Source of the DNA: Desulfosporosinus acidiphilus SJ4
GTDB taxonomy: Bacteria; Bacillota; Desulfitobacteriia; Desulfitobacteriales; Desulfitobacteriaceae
Assembly: GCF_000255115.2 (NCBI RefSeq)
Contig: NC_018068.1
Span: forward strand, 4,001,977-4,065,976
Direction of reading: 5' to 3'
DNA length: 64,000 nt
The first letter of the stretch is position 1. Each line of letters opens with the position of its first letter. Made by a program: the position numbers and the translations under genes. The notes under the pieces were generated by a model. That model saw nothing but the letters and a program-made list of their open reading frames with translations, had not been told where the DNA came from and did not search any database. Shown here piece after piece: positions 28,374 to 63,452 of the stretch.

Positions 28374-28382
28374 TTATACACC

Positions 28383-34319: not shown

Positions 34320-37300
34320 AACTTCTTAACCTCCTAAAAGCGTCAACCATCATTTTCTGAAGACTTTGCGGCTCCCGTGATGATCGGTTACAAGCTTCAG
34401 CGTAATCGCAGAACGTGCAATCATTATCATCTTCTGTCATGACATAAATTCCTTGGGTAAGTAACACAAGAAGTTGATCAAGAATCTCGTAAAAACTATC
34501 CCGTTTTACTTGACTCCGAAGGACTCGTTTACCTTCGCCTTTGACAGTTGGGAAGATATACCCGCTTTCAATTACCTTCGGGTTAGAGGAAATTCCTTTT
34601 TGTAGAAAGATCTGCTCCACAGCAAGAGGATATAAAGCATGTTGCAGCTGCCTGCCCCCCTTGAAATGCTCCCTGTCTGAGTATCCATAGGTACTGCCCG
34701 TCTTATAATCCCAAACTTTGTAACCAGCAGACGTTTTGTCTACCCTGTCAATCTTACCTTTTAAATAAAATCTTCCCCCATTTGGCATGGTAATTGATAT
34801 TGCTTCCACTTCACCAAGTCCAGCATTATCTCCCGACATACCAAATGTTAATTCGAAATACTCGGGGTGAGAGTTTTGTGCCTCAACTTCTTCAGATCTT
34901 AAAAACACTCTGCAAGAATCAAGTAGATTTCGTCGATCCTGCTCAAAAACTAACTCATTTGGCGGTGGTACTTCCGACCTCTGTAGTGTAATAAGTTCAT
35001 CGGCAAGTTCAAATAGATAATTTTGATGTTTGACCAACCCCGGCTTAGCACCCAATTCTTGTAGTTCTCTATAGAATTTATAAAAAATTGCATGGAACAA
35101 GCTCCCTTTAGTTTTACTGTCGAGCCATCTATTCGGATCATACGTTAGTTCTTCCCGAGGTACGACCCTTAAGACATAGCGTAGAAAATACGAATAGGGA
35201 CATTTAGCGAGAGTTTCAAGTTCGCTACAAGACAAAATAAGATTATGATTTACAGTCGGGTCTAACATCGCACCGTCAATTTTAACTAACCCATCATGCA
35301 CAGTTAAGCCGACCCCTTGTTTTTTTATGTCCGCTTGTAATCCGTTATAAAGAGCAGGATAAAGTGATTTTATTGAAGTTAAATCTAATTTCTTTCCAGA
35401 AGTAAGTTGGTATAACCACCATTCCGTCGCCCCCAAAGCTTCCTCGGGCTCGTATGGGATAAAACCTTTTCTTTCACCCAGAGATTTTATGAGGTCGCTA
35501 TAGTCTTGGGTCTCATCACCCGTTAGCAAACGGTACAGTTGCAAAAGAACAGCCGCCGGAAAGACTACTCTGTTTTCGGCTGTATCAAACGCCGTATAAC
35601 TGGCGGTAAGTGATCCAGAAACTGTGCCTAAGAATTGGACTAAATCATAAGTCTTTTCTTTATATCTAAGACCTCGTAGCGGGAGTTCATAACCTAAATT
35701 CTCGCGTTCTACATCTAACAGAATGGGATCTTCTATTCTTGATCCTGGGAAACGGTTTGCATCGAGCCCGACAACAAAAACATGAGGTCGATCAATATAT
35801 ATACCCGCACGGTAGTGGTCTACATGCAAATAACCGGGTTTAGGGTTCGAAGCGTTGACCTGTTTTTCACTTATGACTGAAAGCCTACTGTAGATTTCTT
35901 TAAGTTCCATGCCTTCTTGAAACCAGTCTCTAATCATGAGTAAATGTTCACATATAACTTTCTTTGCATCACCATCAGCAATGTTTTTAACTAAACTAAA
36001 GTTATGCATCAACTTAAGAAGCCATCCAGCAAATTTGCCATAAGAGAAGTTGCCCACTAAATTCGGTTCTGGAAACAAGTCAAATATATCGACGAAAAAT
36101 TCTTTCAGCCATTTAAGACTTAGCAATTTACTTTGCATGAAGGAATCACTGTCCCGTACCTGCTTACCCGTGTCTTCAATTTCTTGTTCCAACAGAGATA
36201 TTGCTTTTTCCAACTCCGTAGCGTATCGTTCCTTCCCCCATCCAATGCTACTATTCCTTAGCAATCGTATAATGGATAACTTTGATGGAGCATCTTGATC
36301 GGAGAGGTTGAGTCCTCCGTTTAAGAGCAAGGGGATAAAATCGGACACACGAAATCCGTTTTCTGCCCAGGTCAGGAGTCCGTGATACAGTCGTCCAGGA
36401 CTTGTAAAGCGGATATTTATGCCCGATCCGAATGTTACAGGTAAGTTCAATTCCTGTGTCAGGGTAAATGTCAAAGGGGCATAAGGACCTTCGGTTGTAT
36501 AATAAATCGCGGTTTGGTCAAACGGAAGTTCCCGTTTCTTTATCTTTCTTAGTACTTCATTCAGTTCGTTCGATTCCCCGTAAGATCTGAATAACTCCAC
36601 CGGTAATACTTGCTGGTTGGCTGATGCATTCGGCAGATCATACAACCATAGCAACTTATTAAGTGCACTAATATCCTTTTCAACAGGTAGGATATTGTTT
36701 TCTAAAGGAGCATACGCTGCAATGCCCTTTGGTCGGGGCAAGTGAAAAACTTCATAATCACGTTTGGTAAGCAACTCTAAAAAGTCTCTTTCGAGTGAAG
36801 TTAGCTTAAGGTTTGATAGAACAATATATGTGCGTGATGTTGCACTCATTTTTGGGGTGATGGCTTCAGTGTAGAGGTCCGATAGGTCTAAAAAACCTCG
36901 GCTCTGAAGCTCCTTTTCGTATTCTGCCCATATGTGTAGAATATCTTCTCCTTTAGCAGTGTTAACAAACTTGGTCGGTGAAACTTTGTCCATCGTCAGT
37001 TCTTGCATCTTTAACTCGTTAATTGCGTTGTAGATGACCCTACTGACCCCAGGCGTCACCTCCAAACAGTTAAAGTATGTTAGTTTGCCCGTATCGCTTA
37101 AATTCTTTAAAATTCCGATGAACAGCTCTTGGCCCAATGCAGTCGGTATAATTGAGCGCTTACTCCTAAAAAGCATTTGCTTGCAAACTTCTTCTGCCAG
37201 GCCTGACAAAGTCATTATTTTGAGGTTCAACGGCTTTAACCCACTTTTGGTACAGCCATCTATTAACTGCCTACCCGCAGAAAATTTAGGGACTATCAAT

Positions 37301-37362
37301 ACCTTTTCGCCTAATGGGTTTTTCTTAAAAATACTGTCTAACTGGTTTATCAATGCTTTCAT
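34312..37362 (-). CDS. AddB-like nuclease subunit with Fe-S cysteines
   Basis: A 1016-residue protein with an inactivated helicase-like N-terminus and a C-terminal PD-(D/E)xK nuclease: GSLFHAIFYKFYREL, then YLKGKIDRVDKTSAGYKVWDYKTGS with the catalytic Asp and Asp-Tyr-Lys. One Cys in SELETLAKCPYSYFLRY plus three in DCTFCDYAEACNR would bind the 4Fe-4S cluster that staples the AddB nuclease domain. No Walker A is obvious. Start ATG 37362 or TTG 37386; GGGAGG sites precede both. It forms an operon with the AddA-like gene. Whether it is the cell's main AddAB or an extra copy with the island is open. Confidence 0.82.
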   Translation of the reverse strand: MKALINQLDSIFKKNPLGEKVLIVPKFSAGRQLIDGCTKSGLKPLNLKIMTLSGLAEEVCKQMLFRSKRSIIPTALGQELFIGILKNLSDTGKLTYFNCLEVTPGVSRVIYNAINELKMQELTMDKVSPTKFVNTAKGEDILHIWAEYEKELQSRGFLDLSDLYTEAITPKMSATSRTYIVLSNLKLTSLERDFLELLTKRDYEVFHLPRPKGIAAYAPLENNILPVEKDISALNKLLWLYDLPNASANQQVLPVELFRSYGESNELNEVLRKIKKRELPFDQTAIYYTTEGPYAPLTFTLTQELNLPVTFGSGINIRFTSPGRLYHGLLTWAENGFRVSDFIPLLLNGGLNLSDQDAPSKLSIIRLLRNSSIGWGKERYATELEKAISLLEQEIEDTGKQVRDSDSFMQSKLLSLKWLKEFFVDIFDLFPEPNLVGNFSYGKFAGWLLKLMHNFSLVKNIADGDAKKVICEHLLMIRDWFQEGMELKEIYSRLSVISEKQVNASNPKPGYLHVDHYRAGIYIDRPHVFVVGLDANRFPGSRIEDPILLDVERENLGYELPLRGLRYKEKTYDLVQFLGTVSGSLTASYTAFDTAENRVVFPAAVLLQLYRLLTGDETQDYSDLIKSLGERKGFIPYEPEEALGATEWWLYQLTSGKKLDLTSIKSLYPALYNGLQADIKKQGVGLTVHDGLVKIDGAMLDPTVNHNLILSCSELETLAKCPYSYFLRYVLRVVPREELTYDPNRWLDSKTKGSLFHAIFYKFYRELQELGAKPGLVKHQNYLFELADELITLQRSEVPPPNELVFEQDRRNLLDSCRVFLRSEEVEAQNSHPEYFELTFGMSGDNAGLGEVEAISITMPNGGRFYLKGKIDRVDKTSAGYKVWDYKTGSTYGYSDREHFKGGRQLQHALYPLAVEQIFLQKGISSNPKVIESGYIFPTVKGEGKRVLRSQVKRDSFYEILDQLLVLLTQGIYVMTEDDNDCTFCDYAEACNRSSREPQSLQKMMVDAFRRLRSYA

Positions 37363-37547
37363 TTCCTCCCAGACCTCCCACCGCAAACACCTATTCAGCC
37401 ATTTTACCCTTGTTTAAAAAACCTGATGAATGTTATGAACTAACGTAAAATCTAAAGTATTAGTGATATAGTTCACCTCCAGTTTTAAGTTATAATAATA
37501 CTTAACTTTATTGACGATTTATAAAATACTAGCAAAAATAAACAATA

Positions 37548-42504: not shown

Positions 42505-43095
42505 ATGAATTACCCAACAAAACAAATGAAGAAAATCCTTCTTTCCCTATCCCTTATACTCTTAACTTTCTTGTTTGCTACAAATGCTCTAGCAGCATCT
42601 GCAGGACTTGAACAAGACACTGGCCCTTACCATGTAACTATGCAAACCAACCCAGAAAACCTTATGGCTAATCAAGCAGGAACCATGACTATGATCATTA
42701 CAAATAAGGCTACCGGACAACCAGTGACTGGTGCCAAAGTAATGATGATGCCATCAACAATGATGGGTAGTAATGCTGGTAATGGCGGTAACATGGCTGG
42801 GATGGACATGTCTTCCGGAATGAACAAGCAGGGTGGCACGCCTATGCAAGAACAATCTAACATGGGTGGCATGGCTATGGCCTCTGGTTCTTACATGATG
42901 GAAGGGATGATGTTTAACCAACCCGGGCAATGGAACCAAGCTATTACTATTACTTCTCCTTTGGGTGAAAGCACTGTTAATTTCCCAATAACGGTCGGTA
43001 AATCCGGACCGAATTTCGTTCTTATTGGTAGTGTCGCCGGTGTTGTTGTGATCGCTGGAATACTCGCTGCAATCTTAAAGAAAAAGAAAAACTAA
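42505..43095 (+). CDS. Met-rich YtkA/FixH-like membrane-anchored extracytoplasmic protein
   Basis: A 196-residue exported protein. Signal peptide 1-31 (ILLTFLFATNALAA), an Ig-like beta domain starting GPYHVTMQTNPENLMANQAG, a Met/Gly-rich insertion at about 75-132 (MMMPSTMMG, MAGMDMSSGM, MGGMAMASGSYMM), return to beta strands, then a membrane helix 171-191 and KKKKN. YtkA/CopC-like domains bind or chaperone copper, and Met clusters bind Cu(I) or Ag(I); metal binding here is inference. RBS AGGAGTG. First gene of a sigma-54-driven operon. Confidence 0.75.
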   Translation: MNYPTKQMKKILLSLSLILLTFLFATNALAASAGLEQDTGPYHVTMQTNPENLMANQAGTMTMIITNKATGQPVTGAKVMMMPSTMMGSNAGNGGNMAGMDMSSGMNKQGGTPMQEQSNMGGMAMASGSYMMEGMMFNQPGQWNQAITITSPLGESTVNFPITVGKSGPNFVLIGSVAGVVVIAGILAAILKKKKN

Positions 43096-43119
43096 GCAAG
43101 AAAGTTGAGGTTCATTGTA

Positions 43120-44472
43120 ATGTCTTCTAAAAAACAGCCCATAAACTTACTCAATATTCCTATACTCAAACGCTTTTTTAAAAGTCCTTTATATCCAAGA
43201 ATCTTCCAATGGATTACTGTTTTAGTTTTTGGATTAATCATGTTCGAAACTTTAGCAGGTCCAACCAGCGTCGGCGAAAACTTTGGTTCCGCCGCCACTT
43301 GGGTTCTTTGGTGGCCATTAATCCCTTTTTTCTTCTTTCTGCTGGGTCGGTTTTGGTGTGGAATTTGCCCTTTTGCCTGGGTGAGCGATCTCACCCAAAA
43401 GTTATTTGGGGCTAACCTTAAGGTTCCGAACTTTATCCGCAAGAACGGTCTCTGGATCATCGATATTACTTTCATCTTTATCACCTGGTCGGATCACATT
43501 TGGGGGATTGTAGAATCTCCCCGAGGATCTGGAACCCTCTTACTACTTATCTTAGGTGGCGTAATGGTAACCGCTTTGCTCTTTGAACGCCGCACCTGGT
43601 GTCGTTATCTATGTTTTCTTGGTAGTTTGTCCGGCAACTATTCCCGGGCTGGTATGTTAGAACTCCGGGCTGACAAAGAAACCTGTAAAACCTGCAAAAC
43701 GAAAGATTGTTATAAGGGAAGTGCTAAAGCCCCTGGTTGTCCGATGTTTGAGTTTCCGATGACTATGGAAAACAACGCCAATTGTAATCTCTGTGGTAGC
43801 TGCATTAAAAGCTGCCCAAATGATTCGATCCGCTTAACCCCCCGTAAACCGACCAGTGAATTTTGGTCGATGACTAAGGCACATTTTGAAGAGTCTTTCT
43901 TAGCGATTGTCATCGTCGGAATTGTGTTTGTCCAAAACATTACTATGTTAGACTTATACCCGTCCTTCCTCAAGTGGGTAGAGCTGACCTTGGGTATTGG
44001 TAATGAAAATATCGCCTTTACGATCCTCTTTATCTTTGCTATGACTACTCCGGTATTATTACTGTTCGCAGCCACCGCAGTTTCTAAGCGTTCAACCGGT
44101 GAGACTCTACGTAATGCCTTTGCGCGTTTTGGCTATGCAGTCATTCCACTTGACCTTGCTTCCCACATGGCCCATAACTTGTTCCATCTTCTGGCTGAAG
44201 GGAAAGCAACTTACTATACTTTTATGGGGCTGTTCGGGGTGCATGTTGAAGGGTCAACCTCATTCATTGCTGACCCAACAATTCAAATAATGCAATACTT
44301 CTTAGTCATCGTCGGAACTCTCGGTTCCATGTACGCGGCTTATAGAATTGCCAAACGGAACTATGGTGTAAGTAAAGCCTTATCCGTCTCCATGCCGTAT
44401 TTACTTGTCATCTTGCTCTTCGGTATCCTAAACTTCCTTACCTTTACAGTAAGAATGGCAATGCGTATGTAG
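43120..44472 (+). CDS. membrane polyferredoxin (NapH/CcoG-like 4Fe-4S protein)
   Basis: A 450-residue membrane protein with about eight helices and several Cys motifs: FWCGICPFAW in an early loop, RYLCFLG, then a cytoplasmic ferredoxin region with CKTCKTKDCYKG...GCPMF and CNLCGSCIKSCPNDSI for 4Fe-4S clusters. NapH-like and RdxA/CcoG-like proteins pass electrons between quinol and extracytoplasmic or metal-handling partners. Start ATG 43120 after GAGGTTCATTGTA. A decayed second copy of its 3' end lies at 50.8-51.1 kb. Confidence 0.85.
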   Translation: MSSKKQPINLLNIPILKRFFKSPLYPRIFQWITVLVFGLIMFETLAGPTSVGENFGSAATWVLWWPLIPFFFFLLGRFWCGICPFAWVSDLTQKLFGANLKVPNFIRKNGLWIIDITFIFITWSDHIWGIVESPRGSGTLLLLILGGVMVTALLFERRTWCRYLCFLGSLSGNYSRAGMLELRADKETCKTCKTKDCYKGSAKAPGCPMFEFPMTMENNANCNLCGSCIKSCPNDSIRLTPRKPTSEFWSMTKAHFEESFLAIVIVGIVFVQNITMLDLYPSFLKWVELTLGIGNENIAFTILFIFAMTTPVLLLFAATAVSKRSTGETLRNAFARFGYAVIPLDLASHMAHNLFHLLAEGKATYYTFMGLFGVHVEGSTSFIADPTIQIMQYFLVIVGTLGSMYAAYRIAKRNYGVSKALSVSMPYLLVILLFGILNFLTFTVRMAMRM

Positions 44473-46934: not shown

Positions 46935-47020
46935 AGTAAGTGCTAAGTTATTGCGGAAGTATGTTTTCACAACGATACTAGGCTGAAATCTAACTATGTG
47001 CTCAAATGAGGAGGATTTTC

Positions 47021-47836
47021 ATGCAAGGGCGACGCCTCTGGACCATCGTAGGTGCAGTGGGCGTGTTTGCAATCGTTATGGTGTACGTTTGGTTTGCTGC
47101 TCGGTATGCGTCCGGAATCAACACAGGTATCCACCCGACTCTTTGGCTGGCTTTTATTGCGGGGTTGCTTTCTTTTGTTTCCCCGTGTTGTCTACCACTG
47201 TATCCATCGTATATTTCCTATATTTCCTGAATTACTTTTTCTAGGAACGAAAAACAGCTCTTGGCTCACCGGTTAAAGGCGTTGACCCACACGCTTTTCT
47301 TCGTGATTGGGTTTTCGATGGTCTTTTTAGCGCTTGGGTTGTCGGCGACCGTGCTCGGGCAAGTCTTTATCACCCATCGAACTTTGTTACGAATTATTGG
47401 AGGCGGAATTGTCATTCTCATGGGACTGTCCCTGAGCGGATTACTAAACCCCAAATGGCTGATGATGGAGAAGAAGTGGGAATACCGCCAAACGAGAGTG
47501 GGCTATGGCTGTTCCGTTTTAGTTGGTATTAGTTTCGCTGCCGGGTGGACGCCGTGTATAAGGCCCATACTGGCGTCGGTTTTGGTCATGAGTGCTAACC
47601 AGCCCTCCGTAAGGTTGGCTTTGATTCTGGCCTACATTGCCGGGTTTTCAATTCCTTTCTTTGTTTTGGCGTTTACGCTGAGCTCAGTACGGAAATTAGT
47701 TCCCTATGGGGCACTGCTTTCCAAGATCGGCGATTATCTGATGATTGGGTTCGGAATATTGTGTCGGCTTACCACCCGAAACTTATACTATTTGGTAAGG
47801 TTCAAAAAATACTATAAACAATTTTCAGCATTTTAA
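47021..47836 (+). pseudogene. ccdA: ccdA interrupted by an in-frame TGA
   Basis: CcdA carries electrons across the membrane to keep apocytochrome Cys residues reduced. The start ATG 47021 follows GAGGAGG. Residues up to [18 protein letters not shown] are normal CcdA (PCC holds a redox Cys), then TGA at 47228-47230 stands where family members have Gly (GGA). The same frame continues ITFSRNEKQLLAHRLKALTH... through GWTPCIRPIL, the second Cys motif, to 47836. The last 30 residues (from GILCRLTTRN) do not look like a CcdA end. Likely a nonsense mutation plus damaged tail; selenocysteine or sequence error are alternatives. Confidence 0.8.
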
Positions 47837-48856: not shown

Positions 48857-49261
48857 TCACTTCGTTGACCCATTTGGCCAAGGATGACAACTCCAACAAG
48901 TCGGCTTTACTGATGCATAATCATGACATTTAACACAAAATTGATCAGAGGGACTTAAGGCCGGGTTATAATGACAGTTCAAGCACGTATCAATACCAAT
49001 TTTAAATGATTTTCCCTGACTATTTACATAAACTGTCTTACCCTCACGTACGTATTCATTCCTCCATTGATCGAGTAATTTCATATGATTAGCCCTCATC
49101 CACTCTGCTGGTTCGATACATTGCTTAGTAGCAAGTTGATGGATAGTCCCAGTATTTATTTCCGGCCCTTTATTGCTTTTCCCCCAATTATAAAGGAAAG
49201 GTATAGTAAGGATGCCAACAAAAATAATAATTGCAGCTATAATCCTTCGATTTTTAAACAT
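48857..49261 (-). CDS. DsrJ-like triheme cytochrome c, stand-alone
   Basis: A 134-residue membrane-anchored cytochrome: signal anchor 5-25, then three CxxCH haem sites (Cys93-His97, Cys109-His113, Cys122-His126). The segment KQCIEPAEWMRANHMKLLDQ matches DsrJ, where the Cys (here Cys48) can be an unusual His/Cys axial ligand, and CHDYASVKPTCWSCH matches the DsrJ tail. DsrJ normally works in DsrMKJOP, but no dsrMKOP gene lies nearby. A paralogue is at 63045-63452. Needs System II maturation, encoded 2 kb away. Confidence 0.82.
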   Translation of the reverse strand: MFKNRRIIAAIIIFVGILTIPFLYNWGKSNKGPEINTGTIHQLATKQCIEPAEWMRANHMKLLDQWRNEYVREGKTVYVNSQGKSFKIGIDTCLNCHYNPALSPSDQFCVKCHDYASVKPTCWSCHPWPNGSTK

Positions 49262-49552: not shown

Positions 49553-49607
49553 ATTCATCAGAAATTCACAACTCATTCACAGCAAAATCGTATTGATTCT
49601 TTATACT
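49553..49607 (+). promoter_or_regulatory. three 11-bp-spaced ATTCAY boxes and -10 of the cupredoxin gene
   Basis: ATTCAT (49553), ATTCAC (49564) and ATTCAC (49575) stand exactly 11 bp apart. TATACT (49602-49607) is the -10, and there is no good -35; box 3 covers that position. Direct repeats at 11 bp over a missing -35 are how OmpR/PhoB-type activators bind. The sequence TCGTATTGATT between box 3 and -10 is also shared with the other copies. Confidence 0.75.
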
Positions 49608-49671: not shown

Positions 49672-50715
49672 ATGAAGACAAAATGGATTGTAGGACTCTC
49701 ATTAGCAAGCGTGATTGCGCTTTCAGGTACGGTATTCGCGATGAACTCTGGGTCAGTTGCCACCCAATCAGTCGGACAAACTCCTGGTATATCACTCGCC
49801 GTTTATAAAACTCCCAATCCAGAAACAGCTGCTAATACATCACAATCTACAGTTGACAACAATTCAAATGACGTTACTAATCCGGGTTCTTATGGTTACG
49901 ATGGAGAGTATGGCATGATGGGGGGTTACGGGGCTAACGGATACGGCGGAGGTTACGGCATGATGGGCGGTTACGGGGCTAATGGATACAGCGGAGGCTA
50001 TGGCATGATGGGCGGTTACGGGGCTAATGGATACAGCGGAGGCTATGGCATGATGGGCGGTTACGGGGCTAATGGATACAGCGGAGGCTATGGCATGATG
50101 GGCGGTTACGGGGCTAATGGATACAGCGGAGGCTATGGCATGATGGGCGGTTACGGGGCTAATGGATACAGCGGAGGCTATGGCATGATGGGGGGTTACG
50201 GTATGATGGGCGGTTTTGGCTACGGCAATGGCAGTAATTACGGTCAAAACATTAAAGATGATAATAGTGCGGCAAAGGATATGGAGACCTCCTTAACCAA
50301 CGCCACAGTCGACAAAAGCGCGAATACAATAACCTATACTGGCACAGCTGTGAACATTGTTATGTTTGGCGGACCAGAAGAAGCCGATGGTAAATTCGTT
50401 ATTGGCGGATTAATAAATCCAACCCTAAAAATCCCTCAAGGAGCAAAAGTAACGATGGAGCTAATCAATGAGGATACCGGTATGCCTCATGGAGTCGAGT
50501 TAACAGCCGCACCCCCTCCTTATGCTTATATGTCGATGATGCAAGGAGGGGTTTACCCGGGTAGCTTTATCCCTCCGATTCCGGAAGCCGCTACTAATCA
50601 ATATCCGTCGGCCCAGGTTTCGTTTACGGCGAGTAATAACGGTGAGTTTTACTATTTATGCCAATACCCAGGTCATGCTGCAAAAGGTATGTACGGGAAA
50701 ATTATTATTGGTTAA
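49672..50715 (+). CDS. exported rusticyanin-like cupredoxin with Gly/Tyr/Met tandem repeats
   Basis: A 347-residue secreted protein. Signal peptide 1-23 (VGLSLASVIALSGTVFA), a Ser/Thr/Asn linker, a repeat block at about 77-180 built from GGYGMMGGYGANGYS (15 residues), then a blue-copper domain at about 200-347. Type 1 copper ligands are His273 (MPHGVEL), Cys330, His335 and Met340 (LCQYPGHAAKGMYGK). PPPYAYM and the G-x-FIPPIP segment before the Cys match rusticyanin, the acid-stable iron-oxidation copper protein. Start ATG 49672 after AAGGAGG. A copper electron carrier in an anaerobe is unusual; the repeat may bind Cu(I) or form a fibrous matrix (inference). Confidence 0.82.
   Translation: MKTKWIVGLSLASVIALSGTVFAMNSGSVATQSVGQTPGISLAVYKTPNPETAANTSQSTVDNNSNDVTNPGSYGYDGEYGMMGGYGANGYGGGYGMMGGYGANGYSGGYGMMGGYGANGYSGGYGMMGGYGANGYSGGYGMMGGYGANGYSGGYGMMGGYGANGYSGGYGMMGGYGMMGGFGYGNGSNYGQNIKDDNSAAKDMETSLTNATVDKSANTITYTGTAVNIVMFGGPEEADGKFVIGGLINPTLKIPQGAKVTMELINEDTGMPHGVELTAAPPPYAYMSMMQGGVYPGSFIPPIPEAATNQYPSAQVSFTASNNGEFYYLCQYPGHAAKGMYGKIIIG
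49900..50208 (+). repeat. 45-bp coding tandem repeat array
   Basis: Units begin at 49939 (one variant), 49984, 50029, 50074, 50119 and 50164; copies 2-5 appear identical at the DNA level, with degenerate edges. Each encodes GYSGGYGMMGGYGAN in permuted form. Identity at synonymous sites points to recent unit expansion. Confidence 0.9.
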
Positions 50716-50845: not shown

Positions 50846-51133
50846 GCATCTTCTGGTGGAAGGAAAAGCTACCTACAATACTTTTATGGGGCCTTTCGGG
50901 GTGCATATTAAAGGATCAACATCATTCGTTGCCGACCTGACGACTCAAATTATGCAGTATATCTTAGTAATTGCCGGAACTCTTAGCTCCATGTATACAA
51001 CTTATTGAAACGCCAAAAGAACTATGGTGTAAGTAAAACCTTATCAGTTTCATTACCGCATATGGGTGTCATTTTGCTCTTCGGTATTTTAAACTCCCTC
51101 AGCTTTACTGTCCGTATGGTAATGCGGATGTAA
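50846..51133 (+). pseudogene. decayed 3' copy of the polyferredoxin gene
   Basis: Reads HLLVEGKATYNTFMGPFGVH... in parallel with residues near the end of the polyferredoxin at 43120-44472 (HLLAEGKATYYTFMGLFGVH). An in-frame TGA replaces the Arg codon after ..MYTTY, a one-base deletion follows, and the original stop context (ATGCGGATGTAA) is recognisable. Similarity continues past the stop into the shared hairpin at 51194-51217, so the 3' flank was copied too. Confidence 0.85.
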
Positions 51134-51193
51134 AATTCGGATGTCAGAGGTTAGCGGCCAGAGGTTATTAGATAATTTATTTTTAACAGCTTT

Positions 51194-51217
51194 GCGCACT
51201 CGCGAAATCGAGTGCGC
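51194..51217 (+). terminator. hairpin copied with the polyferredoxin 3' end
   Basis: GCGCACTCG-CGAAAT-CGAGTGCGC, better paired than the original at 44544. No T-run. Confidence 0.5.
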
Positions 51218-52042: not shown

Positions 52043-52570
52043 TTACCTTCCCATTCTTCCAGTGGAACCCATCATGGTTCTGACTCTTGAATATTGACCC
52101 GATTGTTGAGTTGTGCTAGAAGCATTCACCTTATTAGACCTGTATGTTCCACTCATTACTTGCTGGCTTTGTGAATTATTCATTGGTCCATTCATGGGAG
52201 TACTCACAGACTTTGTCTGCATTTGAGTATAACCGGGCATGTTTTGTATTTGATTATTGGGTTCGTTGGTAGCGATTGGAGTACTCATAGGCATCGTCTG
52301 CATTTGAGTATACCCCGGCATGTTTTGTAGCTGATTATTGGGTTCGTTAGCACTCGTTGGATTACTAGGGTTTGTCTGGTTAGTCTTCGGAGTTGTTCCC
52401 TGCAAATCTCCTGGACTTGTGACATTGCTAGGAGTCATATATGAAGTTGCGCTGGAAGGTTGCGACAATGTGTTGTGGGAATTGCTCCCCGTGGTAGCAG
52501 CATTCACGATCCCCGCCACCCCTAATACTAAAGCCATTGATAAAGTCGCCACTAATGCTTTCTTTTGCAT
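52043..52570 (-). CDS. secreted low-complexity protein with NEPNNQ repeats
   Basis: A 175-residue exported protein: signal peptide about 1-25 (LVATLSMALVLGVAGIVNAA), then Asn/Thr/Gln/Met-rich sequence. NEPNNQLQNMPGYTQMQT recurs as NEPNNQIQNMPGYTQMQT. The end RTMMGSTGRMGR is shared with the partial gene at the right edge. No known domain. ATG 52570 at 12 bases from AAAGGA; TTG 52582 is too close. A SigI-type promoter lies upstream, so it may be an extracytoplasmic stress or surface protein. Confidence 0.65.
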   Translation of the reverse strand: MQKKALVATLSMALVLGVAGIVNAATTGSNSHNTLSQPSSATSYMTPSNVTSPGDLQGTTPKTNQTNPSNPTSANEPNNQLQNMPGYTQMQTMPMSTPIATNEPNNQIQNMPGYTQMQTKSVSTPMNGPMNNSQSQQVMSGTYRSNKVNASSTTQQSGQYSRVRTMMGSTGRMGR

Positions 52571-52680
52571 GCTACAATTCAATCCTTTCTTAACAAGATT
52601 TAGATAATATTAAAATTCAACGCCCTTGAAATCCAGTTTAATTTTCCGTTTGTCTCTCACCTCCTGTTGTCACCATAGTA

Positions 52681-52802: not shown

Positions 52803-53537
52803 GTGCAAGAACAAACAATTCAGCAGACTTTACAAGCAGCTAAAAAGGGAAACAAACTTGCTAGAGAAGAATTTATTGAAAATCACAAACCATTGATCTT
52901 GAAAATCAGCTCAAATTTATGTAAGCGGTATCTAACTTGGGGACATGATGAAGAACTAAGCATCGCCTTAGTAGCTTTTAATGAAGCAATTGATGACTAT
53001 GACCCTGTCCAGGGTGCCTCGTTCTACGGGTTTGCTAAAACTATCATAACACGACGATTAATCGATTACTTTCGCAAAGAGTCAAAACATCAATTACTCT
53101 CGCTTACCCCTTCAGAGTCTGACAACGACATCGATCACCATTATGCTTCCGAAGCGTCTTTGGATATATATAAAGAGAAAGAACAGCATAATGATTTTGC
53201 CGAGACGGTTAAGAGCTATATAATCGTTTTAGCCGAATATGGAATAACCTTAGAAAATTTAGTGGAAGTCTCCCCTAAACACCGTGACAGTAAAGCAACA
53301 CTATATAAAGTGGCCCAAAAACTATGTTCTCAACCCGATTTGCTGCAATACCTAACCAAGAATAAGTGCTTGCCTCTCAAAGAGTTAGAGCTTCTTACCG
53401 GAGTAAAACGCAAAGTCCTGGAAAGAGGGCGCAAATATCTGATTGCCACAGTTCTAATCCTATCCGATCCTGAATTCAGATCTTTAAAAAACTTTACACA
53501 AATAGACTCGATAACTACGCGAAAGGGGTTAGCGTAA
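52803..53537 (+). CDS. sigI: RNA polymerase sigma factor SigI
   Basis: A 244-residue sigma-70-family factor of the SigI group. Region 2 is clear: GASFYGFAKTIITRRLIDYFRK (about 77-98), preceded by EELSIALVAFNEAIDDYDP. The C-terminal region includes LKELELLTGVKRKVLERGRKYLIA, the SigI C-terminal helix-turn-helix. SigI controls heat, cell-wall or polysaccharide-sensing genes together with RsgI. Start GTG 52803 after GGTGGAGGGG. Its last base is the A of the rsgI ATG. Confidence 0.93.
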   Translation: MQEQTIQQTLQAAKKGNKLAREEFIENHKPLILKISSNLCKRYLTWGHDEELSIALVAFNEAIDDYDPVQGASFYGFAKTIITRRLIDYFRKESKHQLLSLTPSESDNDIDHHYASEASLDIYKEKEQHNDFAETVKSYIIVLAEYGITLENLVEVSPKHRDSKATLYKVAQKLCSQPDLLQYLTKNKCLPLKELELLTGVKRKVLERGRKYLIATVLILSDPEFRSLKNFTQIDSITTRKGLA

Positions 53538-54625
53538 TGGCCAAAACTAGAGGCATTGTCATGAAGACCTCCAAAAAAAACACTATTCTTTACACTGAAT
53601 ACGGGGACTATCTGAATATCAAAACACCGCTTGCTGCTCCCCTTCTCGGACAAGTTATGGAAGTGGATCTGCCTATACGGAAAGCTATTAGTCCAAGCTT
53701 CCTAAAAATAGCTTCGATTGCAGCTATGCTGCTTCTCGTTTTGGGTGTAAGTGTATTTAACATTGTCTCCGGCGTCAATACCGCCGTAGCAGCTGTTGTA
53801 ATGGATATAAATAATAGTAAGGAACTTTTGGTTAACTCTGATGCCAAAGTTCTTAAGGTGATTGATTTAAATCAAGGAACTCAAATTTCACCATCTGAGC
53901 TTGAGCTTCAAGGAAAAGACATTTATACATCTGTTGCCCTAATGGTAGATCAGGCCAATACTCAGGGAGGCTTTAAACAAGGCAAAAAACCGGTCATGGC
54001 AAGCATTATCCCCCTTAACAACCGTCAGGCAGATATCGTTGATCAAGCCAAACTCCGTGACTCTATTAGACGCCTCATGATTGAGAAAAATATTTCTTCC
54101 GACTTGATGGTAAGCACGACAGATGAAACCACACAAAAAACCGCTCAAAACCTAGGAATGAGTGTGAACAATTATCTAGTGTATAAGGGTTTAATGGCTA
54201 AAGGGTTCGTTGTCAATCCAAAAGGTTCAGGTAATAACAACACTCTTCATATGTTGACAGAGGCAAATACTACCTTAAACTCACTTTTCCCTAAAGAATG
54301 TGTAACAATAAATCCTCAAAGCGAGACACCTCAAGAGACACCCAACGCGATGGAAACTCCGATGACTGGCCAAAATATGCCTTCTAATGGTACCCAAAAA
54401 GCGAGTTTGAATCCAAGTCCGACTCCGAGTTCGGGTCAAAGTCAAAGTTCTAGTCCAAGTACAAGTCATAATCCGAGTTCACCCAATATGACTAACACCT
54501 CGCCACCTACCGGTTACCCAATGCCCAGCAGTTCTCCAAAGAACATTACACCCTCGTTCCCCATACCCAAGCAAGATAATATGCCTGCTAGCTCAGGCTC
54601 CGAGAGTCATAATATGATGCCTTAA
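53537..54625 (+). CDS. rsgI: membrane anti-sigma factor RsgI
   Basis: A 362-residue protein: cytoplasmic RsgI N-terminal domain about 1-50 (RGIVMKTSKKNTILYTEYGDY), one membrane helix about 58-80 (IASIAAMLLLVLGVSVFNIV), an extracytoplasmic middle domain that starts AVVMDINNSKELLVN, and a Ser/Pro/Thr-rich tail. No carbohydrate-binding module or hydrolase is fused. It would hold SigI until an external cue frees it. Coupled to sigI by 1-base overlap. Confidence 0.9.
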   Translation: MAKTRGIVMKTSKKNTILYTEYGDYLNIKTPLAAPLLGQVMEVDLPIRKAISPSFLKIASIAAMLLLVLGVSVFNIVSGVNTAVAAVVMDINNSKELLVNSDAKVLKVIDLNQGTQISPSELELQGKDIYTSVALMVDQANTQGGFKQGKKPVMASIIPLNNRQADIVDQAKLRDSIRRLMIEKNISSDLMVSTTDETTQKTAQNLGMSVNNYLVYKGLMAKGFVVNPKGSGNNNTLHMLTEANTTLNSLFPKECVTINPQSETPQETPNAMETPMTGQNMPSNGTQKASLNPSPTPSSGQSQSSSPSTSHNPSSPNMTNTSPPTGYPMPSSSPKNITPSFPIPKQDNMPASSGSESHNMMP

Positions 54626-54671: not shown

Positions 54672-54726
54672 ATTCATCAGAAATTCATAACTCATTCACA
54701 GCAAAATCGAATTGATTTTCTATACT
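54672..54726 (+). promoter_or_regulatory. three ATTCAY boxes and -10 of the second repeat-protein gene
   Basis: ATTCAT (54672), ATTCAT (54683), ATTCAC (54694) at 11-bp steps; TATACT at 54721-54726, 27 bp after the start of box 3, exactly as before the cupredoxin gene. The sequence is nearly identical to that promoter from the boxes through GAGACAT. Confidence 0.75.
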
Positions 54727-54766: not shown

Positions 54767-55294
54767 ATGAATAAGACAAAATGGATTGTAGGACTCTCAA
54801 TAGCTAGTATAATTGCCCTTTCAGGTACTGTGTTCGCTATGAACTCTGGGTCATATGCCACCAAACCTGTCGGACAAAATACCGTTTTATCAAATTCCGT
54901 TAATAAAACCGCCAATCTAGGAACAGGCACTGGCACTGATACCGACGGAAGCAGCGCGATTAATAATAGTTCGCCAACAACAAGACAAGCCACAAGCACA
55001 TCACCATCTTCAAGTGACAGTAGGCCAAATAACGTAATTACGCCAGGTTCTAATGGATTCGCCGGAGGTTATGGAATGGGTGGTTACGGTACTAATGGAA
55101 ATGGTGGAGGCAACGGTATGATGGGCGGCTACGGTGCTAACGTAAACGGTGGAGGCTACGGAATGATGGGTGGCTACGGCGCTAACGGAAACGGTGGAGG
55201 TTATGGTATGATGGGCGGTTACGGTTCTAGTGGATACGGCGGAGGATATGGCATGATGGGCGGTTATGGTTCTAATGGAAACGGTAATAAGTAA
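54767..55294 (+). CDS. secreted Gly/Tyr/Met-repeat protein without copper domain
   Basis: A 175-residue paralogue of the first half of the cupredoxin protein. The signal peptide (IVGLSIASIIALSGTVFA) is nearly identical, followed by a Ser/Thr linker and imperfect repeats of GGYGMMGGYGANGNG in the last 80 residues. DNA-level repeats have diverged. No cupredoxin domain follows; the protein ends at NGNGNK. GGAGG precedes ATGATG (54764/54767). Role unknown; metal sequestration or a matrix protein are guesses. Confidence 0.75.
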   Translation: MNKTKWIVGLSIASIIALSGTVFAMNSGSYATKPVGQNTVLSNSVNKTANLGTGTGTDTDGSSAINNSSPTTRQATSTSPSSSDSRPNNVITPGSNGFAGGYGMGGYGTNGNGGGNGMMGGYGANVNGGGYGMMGGYGANGNGGGYGMMGGYGSSGYGGGYGMMGGYGSNGNGNK

Positions 55295-55386: not shown

Positions 55387-56082
55387 TTGATGAGAATCTT
55401 ACTCGTTGATGATGAAAAGAAAATCATCACAGTTCTTAAAGCCTACCTACAACAAGAAGGCTTCCAAGTAACTACCGCCCTTAACGGGCTAATTGCTCTG
55501 ACGCTATTTAAGGAGAACACTTACGATCTAATTATCCTCGATTTGATGCTTCCCGGTATGTCCGGTATAGAGATTTGTCGTGAAATCCGTAAAATATCCT
55601 CCGTCCCTATCATAATGCTCACGGCAAAAGTCGAAGAAGAAGACCGTATTCAAGGCTTGGGCATCGGTGCAGATGATTACATTACCAAACCCTTCAGCCC
55701 ACGCGAAGTAGTCGCTCGGGTTCGTGCTGTTTTACGTCGGGTGAATAACGAAACCACTCCACTTGCAGACATGATTTCCTATAACAACGGTCTGACTATA
55801 GACAATATTCAACATGAGGTTCGCCTTCATGATCAAGTAGTTCCACTCACTCCAACCGAGTTTAAGATTCTGGGGGCCTTGGCTAAGCATCCTGGACGGG
55901 TATACTCCCGTGGACAGCTGGTTGAAATTGTTCAAGGACATGACTTTGAAGGAGATGATCGCGTGATTGATGCTCATATTAAAAAAATCCGGCAAAAAAT
56001 CGAGCTTTCCCCAAGTGACCCGCGTATTATTCTCACTGTTTACGGAGTGGGCTATAAGTTCAATCCCAATCCGGAGCTGTAA
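55387..56082 (+). CDS. OmpR-family response regulator
   Basis: A 231-residue regulator: receiver domain (ILLVDDEKKI; phospho-Asp in LIILDLMLPGMSG; Lys in YITKPFSP) and a winged-helix DNA-binding domain (LTPTEFKILGALAKHPGRVYSRGQL; DDRVIDAHIKKIRQKI). Start TTG 55387 (8 bases after GGAG) or ATG 55390. It is coupled to a sensor kinase. The 11-bp direct repeats at four promoters in this region are the type of site this family binds. Confidence 0.95.
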   Translation: MMRILLVDDEKKIITVLKAYLQQEGFQVTTALNGLIALTLFKENTYDLIILDLMLPGMSGIEICREIRKISSVPIIMLTAKVEEEDRIQGLGIGADDYITKPFSPREVVARVRAVLRRVNNETTPLADMISYNNGLTIDNIQHEVRLHDQVVPLTPTEFKILGALAKHPGRVYSRGQLVEIVQGHDFEGDDRVIDAHIKKIRQKIELSPSDPRIILTVYGVGYKFNPNPEL

Positions 56083-56083
56083 G

Positions 56084-57475
56084 ATGCGCAAAAAACTATT
56101 TTTGTCCACAATCATCATCGCGCTGATTACCGTTACCCTTAGCATGCTAGCCGTTGAATTTGTCTTTCAGCAACAATTTAGTAACTATCTGACTACGACG
56201 AATGAGAATACTATAGAGCAGCTGCCTTCACGCCTAAGCGCCCTCTATCTGAGTAAGGGTTCTTGGGATTCTGCCTCTTTAGAAGAAATCAGCAATACCC
56301 TTCCGGCTGGCACGACGGTAACATTGAGCGATCCCAATGGCCGACTCATTGCCACCTTAAATGATTCTATGGGATCAATGATGCAGGGACAAGGTAATGC
56401 GGGAATGATGGGTATGATGGGCTCATCGGGCATTATGAGTTGGAAAACGAAAACTCTCCCAATTTCCGGAGCAAATGGAGTTATAGCAACAGCTCTAGTT
56501 CGCTACCCGTCCACAGCTCAAATTCTAAATCCTCAAGATGTCCTCTTCCAATCCTCAGTATTTCGTTCGCTTTTATTTGCCGGAGGCTTGGCCCTATTAT
56601 TGGGGATGATCCTCAGTTACTTCACAAGCCGCCGCCTTGTTGCTCCTCTTCAGAGCTTAACCCGAGCTGCGGAACGAATAGGACAAGGACATCTCAAAGA
56701 ACGAGTTTCGACACGATCACGTGATGAAGTTGGACAATTAGCGAATGCCTTTAATATCATGGCCGACAGCTTGGAGCGGCAAGAAACCCTGCGCAAACAA
56801 TTCACAGCCGACATCGCCCATGAGCTCCGTACTCCTTTAACTTCCATCAAGAGTTTTATTGAAGCCTTTCAGGATAACGTTCTGCCGGCCAGCCCGGAGA
56901 ACCTCACCTCCATTCATGAGGAAATTGACCGTTTAGTTGACTTATCCAGTGACCTAAAAGACTTAAATGTGGCGGAAATGGGTACTTTAACACCCATCTT
57001 CGAACCAGTAGACTTGAATCATTTGCTAGAAAAAGTGATTAATAGCCTTTATCCGCTGATCCAAGAAAAGCAATTAGCCCTGAATTGGAACGCTTCGCCG
57101 GAGCCTGCGACTATATCGGGAGACGGGCGGCTTTTAACCAGGCTCTTTTACAATCTCATTCACAACGCCTATCGGTACTCAAATGATAGCGGTAAAGTGA
57201 TCGTTAGGCTTACATCAACACCGGATTCTGCGGTAATCGCTATTAAAAACACAGGCCCCGGCATTCCGGAAAAAGATCTGCCTTATATCTTCGAGCGATT
57301 CTACCGCGCCGATAAATCCCGTACCCGGGAAACCGGAGGAACAGGAATTGGTCTAGCCCTAGTCCAGCAGATTACAAACCTCCATAAAGGCACCATCACT
57401 GTGCAAAGTAAAGTCGGTCAAGATACTGAATTTATTGTCCAACTTCCTAAAGAGATAAAAGTGGCAGAGGAATAG
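56084..57475 (+). CDS. sensor histidine kinase with Met-rich extracytoplasmic loop
   Basis: A 463-residue kinase. TM1 about 5-27, extracytoplasmic domain 28-158 with a Met/Gly patch at 96-118 (MGSMM, GMMGMMGSSGIM), TM2 about 160-182, HAMP about 183-235, HisKA with His246 (ADIAHELRTPLTS), ATPase motifs (LIHNAYRYS, KNTGPGI, GGTGIGLALV). Start ATG 56084, one base after the regulator stop. A Met patch in the sensor loop suggests Cu(I)/Ag(I) or oxidant sensing, by analogy with CusS-type kinases (inference). Confidence 0.93.
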   Translation: MRKKLFLSTIIIALITVTLSMLAVEFVFQQQFSNYLTTTNENTIEQLPSRLSALYLSKGSWDSASLEEISNTLPAGTTVTLSDPNGRLIATLNDSMGSMMQGQGNAGMMGMMGSSGIMSWKTKTLPISGANGVIATALVRYPSTAQILNPQDVLFQSSVFRSLLFAGGLALLLGMILSYFTSRRLVAPLQSLTRAAERIGQGHLKERVSTRSRDEVGQLANAFNIMADSLERQETLRKQFTADIAHELRTPLTSIKSFIEAFQDNVLPASPENLTSIHEEIDRLVDLSSDLKDLNVAEMGTLTPIFEPVDLNHLLEKVINSLYPLIQEKQLALNWNASPEPATISGDGRLLTRLFYNLIHNAYRYSNDSGKVIVRLTSTPDSAVIAIKNTGPGIPEKDLPYIFERFYRADKSRTRETGGTGIGLALVQQITNLHKGTITVQSKVGQDTEFIVQLPKEIKVAEE

Positions 57476-57585: not shown

Positions 57586-58026
57586 TTATTTTGAACCAAG
57601 TGCTTCCTTAACAAGAGGTTGTAGGGCTGGATCTTTTAGCATGGTTTCAAAGGTCGTTTTCATCCGAGGATCAGCCATGATCTGTACCATAGGCTTATAC
57701 ATAGACGGATTAGACATAATACTTACCATTGCATCCTGGTTTTGGCTGCTCCCCATGAAACCAATCATATTCTTTTGGACATTGCTGTCCTTCATCACAT
57801 CTGTCATCACAGGTAACATTTGAGATGACCCCATGATTTTCACCATAGACTGACGCGTATCAGGTGAGCTTAAAATATCAACCATAGCCGAGGGATTGCT
57901 GGTCATATATTGGGTCATATTGCTGGTATTCATCATACCATTGCTTTGACTGCTACAACCGGCAAGGACTAATGTAGCAGTCGAGATTAAACCTACAATT
58001 AGAACTGATCTTATTTTCTTATTCAT
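57586..58026 (-). CDS. Met-rich helical lipoprotein
   Basis: A 146-residue lipoprotein: signal peptide with LAGC lipobox (Cys near 23), then an all-helical domain made of short repeated units rich in Met and Asp/Ser (MVDILSSPDTRQSMVKIMGS, DAMVSIMSNPSMYKPMVQIM). The pattern resembles GerD, the spore germination lipoprotein scaffold, but Met content is much higher. ATG 58026 chosen for spacing to GGAGA. Two ATTCAT boxes at 11 bp lie 255 bp upstream, the same motif as the repeat-protein genes. Confidence 0.65.
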   Translation of the reverse strand: MNKKIRSVLIVGLISTATLVLAGCSSQSNGMMNTSNMTQYMTSNPSAMVDILSSPDTRQSMVKIMGSSQMLPVMTDVMKDSNVQKNMIGFMGSSQNQDAMVSIMSNPSMYKPMVQIMADPRMKTTFETMLKDPALQPLVKEALGSK

Positions 58027-58280
58027 AACCCTCATTCTCCTACATTCAAATTAGCTTTTTCTTTAAATTTTGTCTAAGTATAAGTAGTTTAGAATCAACT
58101 AAAAATATGTTCACGAAATCAATCATTGGCAATGTCTTTGTTTTGCTACCATTCCTCATATTACTTCGGGAACAGCAATACCACTTTCATTTTTCTTTAA
58201 TTCATTCCTCCCTAAATATTGTTTAACAGCATCAATTTGTTTTATGCTGTATTGTTATATCTTTAGTGTACCTCTTTAAT
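58027..58280. other. long leader or promoter region of the Met-rich lipoprotein
   Basis: A+T-rich, no gene. A TATAAC-like -10 on the minus strand occurs near 58259-58254. Confidence 0.35.
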
Positions 58281-60940: not shown

Positions 60941-62680
60941 CTACAGCCTAAATTTTGAGACAAGATGTAATAAACTTTCGCCAAGCTTTGCCAGGGCTTC
61001 AGCTGATTGGCTCACCGTTTCCATTGTGGCGGCTTGTTCCTCCGACACAGCGGAAACCTCTTCTGCACTTGCTGCAGTCTGCTCAGCTATCACACCAATA
61101 CTTTCCACTGATTGGACCGCATGGGTTGTACCTGTGGCCATTTGGTGAGATGCTTCCGAAACCTGATGAATTTGCTCTACGACAGTGTTAACTTCTTCTA
61201 CTATGGTTCGGAAGGAATGACCTGCCAAATTCACAGCTTCTACTCCCGCAACCACATCACCTTTACTATTCTCCATCAGTCCTACCGCACGTTCCGTCTC
61301 ACGCTGGATATTATCAATTAGGGTTGCGATCTGAACTGTGGAAATCGATGATTGCTCCGCCAACTTACGGACCTCTTCAGCAACTACAGCAAATCCTCTC
61401 CCTTGTTCGCCCGCCCGTGCAGCCTCAATCGCTGCATTAAGAGCCAGTAAATTGGTTTGCTCTGCGATTCCTTTGATGACATCCACAATTTGCCCGATCT
61501 GTTTGGATTGATCTCCCAACTGGAAAACGGCTTCGGCTGTATGAACAGACGCTTGTCGGATTTGTTCGATTTTGTTCACGGCATTTTCGGCTTGAAGCGC
61601 TCCTAGGTTAGCAGCCTGCGCTGCCTTTCCACTCCTTTGGTTAACCACCCCAGCATTTTCCGCCACCTGCAGCGCATTAGCTGACAGCTGTTCAATGACC
61701 CTACTGGTATCTCTGACTGATATTGCTTGATCCGTTGCCCCGGACGCAAGTTGAGCTAGAGTTTCAGATATTTGTCCACTGGCAGCTGTCGCTTCCTCTG
61801 AAGCAGCCGATAATTCTTGGCTAGTTGCCGCAATACTCTCAGACTGAGTTAATACTTCTCTAATAACCTCTCGCAACGAATGGACCATCGCACTAACCGC
61901 TTGGGCTAAAACACCAATTTCGTCTTTATTTTTAATATCAGGCATTTTAACGTTTAAGTCCCCATCAGCCACTGACTGAGCAACCTTCGTCACCTCAGTT
62001 AGAGGACGGCTAATATGTCGTGCCAGCATAATTGCCAAACCCGCCCCCACAATCAAGGCCATTAAAACAAATATAATCAGGAACCTCAAAACAGAACTAT
62101 CTGTAGTCCGCGCATCTACAACGGCTTGAGCCCCTCCTTGATCCTGAAAATTCATTTGAGCATTCATATCTTTGATCACCTGGTCAAAACTTGCTTTGCT
62201 CTTATCCATTATTATGGAACGGGCCTCATCATCCTTACCTTCCGCTATCAGTTTCCATACTTCATCAGCATCTGTCATATACATGCTAAAGGATTTCTGC
62301 ATGGTTTGACTTCGTGCTTTTCCATCTCCACTTGTTACATATTTATTATACTGGGCAAAATCACTTTCCCATTTGGTTTTAAAGTTCATGAATTGAGCTT
62401 TTTCGTCCTGTAACATTTTTGCATTGGCACGCATCGTAAATCCTATCAAAAGAGTACGCCGAGTGTCTTCTGTATCCTCAACCACTTGCGCCAAGGACGT
62501 TGTTGCTTTTAACCAATGCCCGCCTAGATCTTCCGCTCCCGCATTGATCTTATAAACGCCGAAATAGCCCACACCCCCAACAAGCAACGTTAGTAGCAGT
62601 ACAACCAAAAAGCCTAAGAGTAATTTAATTCTTATCCCGTAACTTATGACAGACTTTGAGGTATCTATCTTTTTATCCAT
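60941..62680 (-). CDS. methyl-accepting chemotaxis protein
   Basis: A 579-residue chemoreceptor: TM1 about 17-37, a four-helix-bundle ligand domain 38-205, TM2 about 204-225, HAMP about 226-280, and a signalling domain whose hairpin tip reads [20 protein letters not shown] with [16 protein letters not shown]. No C-terminal CheR-docking pentapeptide. The 4HB domain ([13 protein letters not shown] region) may bind small ligands or metals. Its promoter copies that of the two repeat proteins, which links taxis to the copper-protein regulon. Leader of about 200 bases. Confidence 0.95.
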
Positions 62681-62883: not shown

Positions 62884-62938
62884 AGTATATTGAATCAATA
62901 CGACTATGCTGTGAATGAGTTATGAATTTCTCATGAAT
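62884..62938 (-). promoter_or_regulatory. three ATTCAY boxes and -10 of the chemoreceptor gene
   Basis: Minus-strand boxes start at 62938 (ATTCAT), 62927 (ATTCAT) and 62916 (ATTCAC), 11 bp apart; TATACT lies at 62889-62884, 27 bp after the start of box 3. TCGTATTGATT between them is identical to the cupredoxin promoter. Confidence 0.75.
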
Positions 62939-63044: not shown

Positions 63045-63452
63045 TTATGTAGCGCCCTTCGGTAAAATATGGCAAATCCAACAGTTAGGATTCACGGCTG
63101 TATGATCATGGCATGAAACACAGAACTGATCAGATGTTTTTAAAGCCGGATCATAATGACAATTTAAGCACGTTTGAAGATTATTTTCGAATGACTTGCC
63201 TTGACTATTAATATATACCCTTTTGCCTTTGCGTACGGCTTCATCTCTCCATTGGTTCAGCAGAATCATATGATTAGCCTTCATCCACTCTGCAGGCTCA
63301 ACACACTGCTTAACCGCTAATTTCTGGATAGCTGGAGTATTCAGATTTATTACAGGTCCCTTGCCTGATTTCCTTATGTTATAGAGGAACGGTAAGCTGA
63401 CTATAGCAACAAAGACAACAAGTGACGCAATGATTTTTCCCCATTTGTGCAT
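63045..63452 (-). CDS. second DsrJ-like triheme cytochrome c
   Basis: A 135-residue paralogue of the gene at 48857-49261, with the same anchor helix, the same KQCVEPAEWMKANHM segment (Cys50, possible axial ligand) and three haem sites (TCLNCHYDP, FCVSCHDH, NCWICH). Residues between motifs are largely conserved, so the pair arose by duplication. GAGGAGG lies upstream of ATG 63452. No other Dsr subunit is adjacent. Confidence 0.82.
   Translation of the reverse strand: MHKWGKIIASLVVFVAIVSLPFLYNIRKSGKGPVINLNTPAIQKLAVKQCVEPAEWMKANHMILLNQWRDEAVRKGKRVYINSQGKSFENNLQTCLNCHYDPALKTSDQFCVSCHDHTAVNPNCWICHILPKGAT

Follow-up and report, generated by a model that had tools for sequence, protein, structure and literature searches.

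A role in copper resistance has been proposed for the rusticyanin of Acidithiobacillus ferrooxidans, and the accessible part of the source reports that Acidithiobacillus rusticyanin is induced by copper and conferred copper resistance on E. coli (PMC7463520). A rusticyanin-related protein of Desulfosporosinus is already in print, and the available text of the same paper calls the role of rusticyanin-like proteins in Gram-positive acidophiles unclear (PMC6803676). In the case of Sulfobacillus thermotolerans, what is accessible of the published account leaves a role of the rusticyanin-like protein in metal resistance possible. Among the literature matches listed, no title or abstract described either the protein architecture or the regulon presented below.

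Desulfosporosinus acidiphilus SJ4 comes from acid mine drainage. We analysed a 64,000-nucleotide stretch of its genome (the window, to which all coordinates refer unless a locus handle is given; L and G numbers are our own handles for loci and genomes); the whole genome has 4,991,181 bases, including a contig of 4,926,837. A first-pass annotation of the window, made from its letters, had proposed that a rusticyanin-like cupredoxin joined to a tandem repeat serves either an outer-surface electron route or copper defence. Our analysis leads us to think it probable that the protein, an exported blue-copper protein with a Met-rich tail, belongs to a metal-defence regulon of the envelope, with copper as the most likely metal.

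A rusticyanin-type domain on a repeat stalk

The gene (49672-50715, + strand) starts with ATG, has AAGGAGG immediately 5' and encodes 347 residues. By ORF analysis, Pfam and structure comparison these comprise a signal peptide (recognised by eye), a linker, a Gly/Tyr/Met repeat stalk and a rusticyanin-like cupredoxin domain. A 45-bp tandem array (49909-50201, +; TRF period 45, 6.5 copies, 97% matches, score 544), the sole TRF array within 48-52 kb, codes for the stalk, and the 15-residue units read at first are indeed there, residues 93-167 being five perfect GGYGMMGGYGANGYS units. The cupredoxin domain (residues 191-347; 50242-50712, +) is placed by alignment, predicted fold and structure comparison. 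Pfam Copper-bind matches the protein at 23.1 bits against a cut-off of 21.2, and a sequence search against solved structures returned rusticyanin at 5e-21. His273, Cys330, His335 and Met340, the ligands named in the first-pass annotation, stand where it put them and align, as predicted ligands, in register with the copper site of rusticyanin. By the rusticyanin numbering in the accessible part of PMC10654088, Ser86 lies beside the first His ligand; the window protein has Gly274 at this position.

An AlphaFold2 model built on an 8-row alignment (the window protein and homologous loci) has pLDDT below 50 for residues 1-187, that is, the stalk is predicted to be disordered. From residue 191 onward pLDDT is mostly above 90, with dips at 231-240 (69) and 281-300 (62-71), the latter being the PPPYAYM stretch. 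The nine solved structures nearest to the model are all rusticyanin (Foldseek E 9.6e-16 to 1.1e-12, target TM 0.84-0.87; VIA-align Z 20.9-23.1 over 149-153 residues, with the next structure at Z 13.2), and model residues 187-347 superpose on rusticyanin chain 1-155, N-terminal extension included. The match of the modelled, rusticyanin-like fold is far beyond chance, and the kinship first read from the letters, together with the cupredoxin fold expected from structure prediction, is borne out: most of 191-347 is confidently modelled, with the ligands in rusticyanin register. The protein falls short of the NCBIfam cut-offs for the rusticyanin equivalog (TIGR03095, 108.5 against 146.7 bits) and for sulfocyanin (TIGR03094, 17.7 against 168.4 bits). 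It is a new variant of rusticyanin-type protein, real and not an artefact.

Five of the 60 relatives have a close homologue. One of the five is the own genome, and the other four carriers are Desulfosporosinus sp. FKB, D. acididurans M1, Desulfosporosinus sp. I2 and Acididesulfobacillus acetoxydans; there are further homologues in Alicyclobacillus sp. SP_1 and in a Bacillota MAG, and no plasmid matched the cupredoxin domain. FKB, I2, SP_1 and the MAG are likely to come from acidic sites. The I2 homologue is without the repeat, a point against the metal-defence reading. The contrast initially drawn between an acidophile-type rusticyanin and a sulfate-reducing host has faded, because two of the other carriers, D. 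acididurans and A. acetoxydans, are described as acidophiles in the accessible text on them. An even draw across the phylum gave a homologue in 4 of 398 genomes, and with weaker cupredoxins counted in, homologues were present in 24 of 42 genomes of the order of G214 and 11 of 15 of the order of G419. In a 38-row tree the window protein clusters with the four other carriers and two Alicyclobacillus-type sequences (99/89), and A. ferrooxidans rusticyanin is distant, on a long branch; judged by this tree, the window cupredoxin sits in a Bacillota branch separate from A. ferrooxidans rusticyanin. From 58 ORFs of the phylum we drew 36 rusticyanin-like proteins with a score of at least 90 and a near-full domain (L106 is cut by a contig end), leaving 19 that scored below 90 and 3 partial ones. 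MM is found in the stalk of 31 of the 36 and GMMG in 26; 4 of the 19 lower-scoring ORFs have MM within the last 60 residues before the domain.

Type-1 ligands on a rusticyanin fold would also suit a high-potential electron carrier of the envelope, one that exchanges electrons with c-type cytochromes (DsrJ, NorC-like) or with a terminal reductase and is tethered flexibly to the wall by the repeat. ResB/ResC and DsrJ are encoded within the window, and the polyferredoxin and triheme cytochromes that the first-pass annotation had seen nearby are confirmed. The polyferredoxin is NapH-like (43105-44472, +), and the cytochromes are stand-alone DsrJ copies, one of them divergent from the cupredoxin gene (48857-49261, -; NF038038); the two in the window score 164.9 and 155.6 bits against a cut-off of 100. 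Moreover, the one COX1-family gene of the genome (G000:C3:997767, L029) lies beside a small membrane c-type cytochrome, the pair being NorB/NorC-like by eye and unnamed by NCBIfam at 1e-6, and all 4 carriers searched have this gene. However, so do 12 of 18 non-carriers of the genus, and the NorB-like gene (16 of 22 genus genomes in all) was rejected as a partner. NosZ was rejected too: it has matches in 10 of 60 genomes (9 over cut-off), and A. acetoxydans is the sole carrier with one, the other four lacking it. No redox partner is found near the cupredoxin in the other carriers, where neither polyferredoxin nor DsrJ lies in the surrounding 12.7-20 kb, and the feature common to all five is the promoter element described below. 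We therefore regard an electron-carrier function as unlikely, and the electron route proposed at first is left with no specific partner.

A promoter element and the genes behind it

Two further genes of the own genome have the leader and repeat of the cupredoxin: a repeat-only paralogue (54767-55294, +), with GGYGMMGG-type repeats, no C-terminal domain and no Pfam match, and a gene elsewhere with a PepSY domain. Among the 36 relatives searched, the leader/repeat module was found in 13 genomes, all of the genus, a count that is too low because G003 has two such genes (L156) that the search missed; outside the genus, G034 (L149) has a PepSY-type gene with short repeats. Across 15 loci the module genes end in a PepSY-type region (12), a cupredoxin (1) or nothing (2), with PF03413 over cut-off in the own PepSY copy, L031, L046 and L156 and below it in L035, L149 and L049. 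The promoter and leader DNA of the three own module genes can be aligned, which suggests that a resident promoter-leader-stalk acquired the blue-copper domain as an addition. The second cupredoxin of Alicyclobacillus SP_1 has three similar GGYGxMGG units; collagen-like loci L005-L008 matched in composition only and were dropped.

The leader and repeat that the repeat-only paralogue and the PepSY fusions have in common, and the low sequence complexity of the repeats, could be taken to indicate a structural or mineral-surface role, in which the Gly/Tyr/Met repeats would assemble with one another at the cell surface and carry the cupredoxin along as a passenger. Against this stand the predicted disorder of the stalk (repeats of this kind are poorly predicted anyway) and the range of GMMGG motifs among the five carriers, from 0 in I2 to 8 in the window protein, and we give this possibility very little credence.

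The promoter element is 36 bp long and consists of 11-bp direct repeats of TTCAYA. Upstream of the cupredoxin gene (49554-49589, +; -10 TATACT at 49602-49607) it reads TTCATC-agaaa-TTCACA-actca-TTCACA; a second copy precedes the repeat-only paralogue (54673-54708, +; -10 TATACT at 54721-54726) and a third (62902-62937, -) lies 257 bp upstream of the gene for a methyl-accepting chemotaxis protein (60941-62680). The search pattern TTCAYNNNAAATTCAYAACTNNNTCAYNNNNNNATC was drawn from seven sites (those of the window cupredoxin, the repeat-only gene, the own PepSY-repeat gene and the cupredoxins of the four other carriers) and fits these by construction, so that the remaining sites constitute the test. 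With up to 3 mismatches there are 14 sites across the 5-Mb own genome and none for the reversed control; 33 of 60 relatives have sites, and the controls gave 0 in all 60. The -10 box lies outside the search pattern. In 59 de-duplicated sites, from loci selected because they have the module or the element, TAnnnT stands at one fixed offset in 56 and at a second offset in 14, with at most 4 at any other of the 32 offsets tested. Direct repeats near -35 with a -10 box at a fixed distance characterise operators of the OmpR/PhoB type, and the 11-bp repeats have just this arrangement.

Fourteen own sites lead to a varied set: (i) the cupredoxin, the repeat-only protein (with the two-component system of the window next in line) and the PepSY-repeat protein; (ii) three Met-rich exported proteins of 146-148 aa with 11.5-12.3% Met (L140:14076-14522, -; L141:5623-6063, -; L143:4813-5256, +), the one examined having no Pfam match, and two sites at SHOCT-type small proteins; (iii) PspA (2 mismatches), an exported protein together with DsbD/CcdA in an operon, and a 1164-aa wall-binding protein (3 mismatches); and (iv) the chemotaxis receptor, a second copy of the two-component system and a Gln-rich ORF. 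Overall, an ORF that has a ribosome site follows 52 of the 59 sites, and 29 of these 52 ORFs have at least 5% Met, a group that excludes the cupredoxins of the other carriers (4.2-4.8% Met). The element stands upstream of the cupredoxin in 4 of 4 other carriers, sites that helped to draw the pattern. In 13 distant loci with rusticyanin-like proteins it was not found at up to 5 mismatches, so this regulation is not common to the whole cupredoxin family. On these sites, the element-bearing genes look like a new regulon, and we are highly confident that the cupredoxin gene is a member; as the promoter is conserved, membership can be read from genomes.

Met-rich genes are concentrated around the cupredoxin. 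The window has 49 ORFs of at least 120 aa, 17 of them between 42 and 58.5 kb, and the six richest in Met all belong to these 17 (probability by chance 9e-4, from counting with a crude ORF caller). Met-rich genes of this stretch include 42505-43095 (+), for an exported, weakly YtkA-like protein that has a membrane helix at its C-terminus and 11.7% Met; 52043-52582 (-), also exported, with 8.4% Met; and 57586-58035 (-), lipoprotein-like, with 14.1% Met and a GerD core domain over the Pfam cut-off (33.2 against 29.5). The first two have no element upstream here. At three loci outside the genus (L148, L149, L151) the element is followed by a Met-rich gene and a relative of the polyferredoxin gene; a decayed copy of the 3' end of the window's polyferredoxin gene (50847-51216, +; 75% DNA identity) lies behind the cupredoxin, the trace of a local duplication.

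Other features of the window are recorded here in their own right. SigI (52803-53537) and an RsgI-like anti-sigma protein with a Pro/Ser/Met-rich tail (53537-54625) form a pair (52803-54625, +; Pfam, NCBIfam). Comparable pairs are found next to repeat or Met-rich proteins in several genomes (L015:14890-16706, L143, L155), in some cases with a Met-rich RsgI tail; given this position, SigI was considered as a possible regulator but not adopted. Four DsrJ genes of the genome exceed the NF038038 cut-off (48857-49261 and 63045-63452 in the window, L140:16647-17117 and L142:3755-4141, all -), with no dsrMK/OP neighbours within the regions examined; DsrJ is found near the PepSY-repeat gene in several genus genomes, often with an NrfD-like gene. 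A CcdA-like gene (47006-47836) is apparently broken, in two pieces in different frames with an odd C-terminus. HamA (PF08878) adjoins a DEAD-type helicase, an arrangement seen in Hachiman defence, near AddA/AddB-like genes; the region (26169-29324 and 31050-37386) is likely a defence island.

Candidate regulator and probable metal signal

The likely regulator of the element, which we propose from its type and distribution, is the window's OmpR/PhoB-type response regulator (55387-56082, +; Pfam, NCBIfam; start probably ATG 55390), encoded next to a sensor histidine kinase with a Met-rich extracytoplasmic loop (56084-57475, +; Pfam, NCBIfam and loop reading). Close relatives of the kinase occur in 31 of 60 genomes and the element in 33, with both in 30, neither in 26 and 4 discordant (Fisher p 1.6e-12, not corrected for descent); outside the genus the split is 5/0/1/25 (p 3.5e-5, likewise not corrected). 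The discordant genomes are G005 and G009 (79% complete) and G025 (complete genome), with the element and no kinase match, and G035, which has the kinase and sites with 3-5 mismatches around it. All 12 of the 12 kinase outer loops caught by regex have 5-9 Met per 42 residues. The system misses the heavy-metal kinase and regulator cut-offs (TIGR01386, 203.0 against 292.55; TIGR01387, 170.9 against 279.2), and the best kinase model is BaeS, at 265.9 against a cut-off of 500.

The two-component system lies directly 3' of the cupredoxin gene in D. acididurans, with one gene between in FKB, and after the repeat-only gene, 4.7 kb on from the cupredoxin, in the window; in I2 and A. acetoxydans the kinase is elsewhere in the genome. 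D. acidiphilus also has a counterpart of the D. acididurans cupredoxin locus (L145), with flanks 64-90% identical, the system at 94/85% and no cupredoxin. In 8 of 13 distant loci (L115, L116, L117, L118, L121, L123, L022, L023) the cupredoxin has an OmpR-type regulator at a distance of about 6 kb or less, a count with no base-rate control and only a lead.

In the mechanism that we favor, the membrane kinase would sense Cu(I), or envelope damage caused by Cu(I), through its Met-rich outer loop, and its OmpR/PhoB-type partner would bind the 11-bp direct repeats, which overlap the -35 region. This would switch on the cupredoxin, the repeat-only and PepSY-repeat proteins, further secreted proteins rich in Met, PspA and a gene for disulfide/cytochrome maturation. 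In the envelope the disordered GGYGMMGG tail may gather Cu(I) loosely via thioethers, and the folded domain may hold one copper tightly. Thioethers are not protonated at low pH and keep binding Cu(I) there, unlike His or Cys, a property that would make the stalk an acid-proof copper trap.

Part of the evidence for copper comes from relatives. At three genus loci the element is followed by a CsoR-family gene and a copper ATPase: L059 (exact), L056 and L057 (3 mismatches). The CsoR-family assignment is by the RicR model at 62 bits, below its cut-off of 175; TIGR01511 is over cut-off in L056 and L057, and the L059 region ends past the copper-binding domains of the ATPase. CopA-like matches of at least 90% are present in 5 of 12 genus loci (L052 being a fragment, and those in L060 and L062, 33% and short, left out of the count), and a copper-type ATPase in 2 of 13 distant loci (L116, L122). 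The copper-defence half of the first proposal is thereby strengthened, through regulon membership and through three relatives in which this element also stands before CsoR-family and CopA genes. In the own genome, however, none of the 14 sites has a copper ATPase behind it within the regions examined; one adjoins a Zn/Cd-type ATPase (L142), and at 4.8 kb from another there is a heavy-metal ATPase of no assigned type, accompanied by an ArsR-type gene (L141). Metals in general, or general envelope stress, may accordingly be the signal. A multicopper oxidase gene lies 11 kb beyond the window end (L140), with no element on its strand.

PspA, the chemotaxis receptor and the wall-binding protein also count against copper specificity. 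With DsbD/CcdA and the kinase's closeness to BaeS, they would fit a general regulon for envelope stress or oxidant buffering, with Met in a sacrificial role and the cupredoxin as one wall protein among many induced by stress, not a device specific to copper. Such a regulon would not readily account for the type-1 ligand set, retained in 36 of 36 rusticyanin-like relatives (33 by regex, 3 by eye), or for the CsoR-family and copper ATPase genes behind the element, and we consider it quite improbable. Copper remains, from gene content, the likely metal of the regulon.

We extend the metal-defence reading, with about as much belief as doubt, to an undescribed Met-based regulon in Desulfosporosinus and its kin, made up of a Met-loop kinase with an OmpR-type regulator, one promoter and a secreted Met-rich set. 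Part of this set would be built on a modular stalk, the acid-proof copper trap, with swapped end domains: much of the genus would have a PepSY region there, some stalks nothing, and acidophiles a rusticyanin-like blue-copper domain gained by transfer. Mardanov reportedly wrote on copper-resistant Desulfosporosinus in 2016. Acidophilic sulfate reducers are useful for mine-drainage treatment.

Comparison with described systems

Like A. ferrooxidans rusticyanin (PDB 2CAK, 1RCY), the window protein has a cupredoxin fold with the N-terminal extension and His/Cys/His/Met ligands. It differs in being 28-30% identical and below the TIGR03095 cut-off, in having Gly for Ser beside the first His, and in its Gly/Tyr/Met stalk and Gram-positive host; no iron-oxidation gene cluster was seen within the window. 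Of an aerobic iron-oxidation chain with aa3 oxidase, the setting of rusticyanin, the genome offers a single COX1-family gene, the NorB-like one. The Sulfobacillus and Alicyclobacillus rusticyanin-like proteins (including S. thermotolerans Kr1, G473) fall on the same side of the 38-row tree and most have Met-rich stalks, but these are mostly shorter and less regular, and none of the 13 distant loci examined has the Desulfosporosinus element. A rusticyanin-like protein of a Gram-positive acidophile tied to a regulon, and apparently not to an iron-oxidation chain, offers a testable answer to the question of its role.

There is also a parallel in Synechocystis CopM-CopRS, where a secreted copper-binding protein is encoded with, and controlled by, a two-component system; the accessible text mentions no cupredoxin or GGYGMMGG repeat, and the export partner is an RND system (PMC4335983). 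CusRS/CopRS and BaeSR, finally, resemble the window system in pairing an OmpR-type regulator with an outward-facing sensor, but the window system misses their curated cut-offs and has a Met-rich loop of its own.
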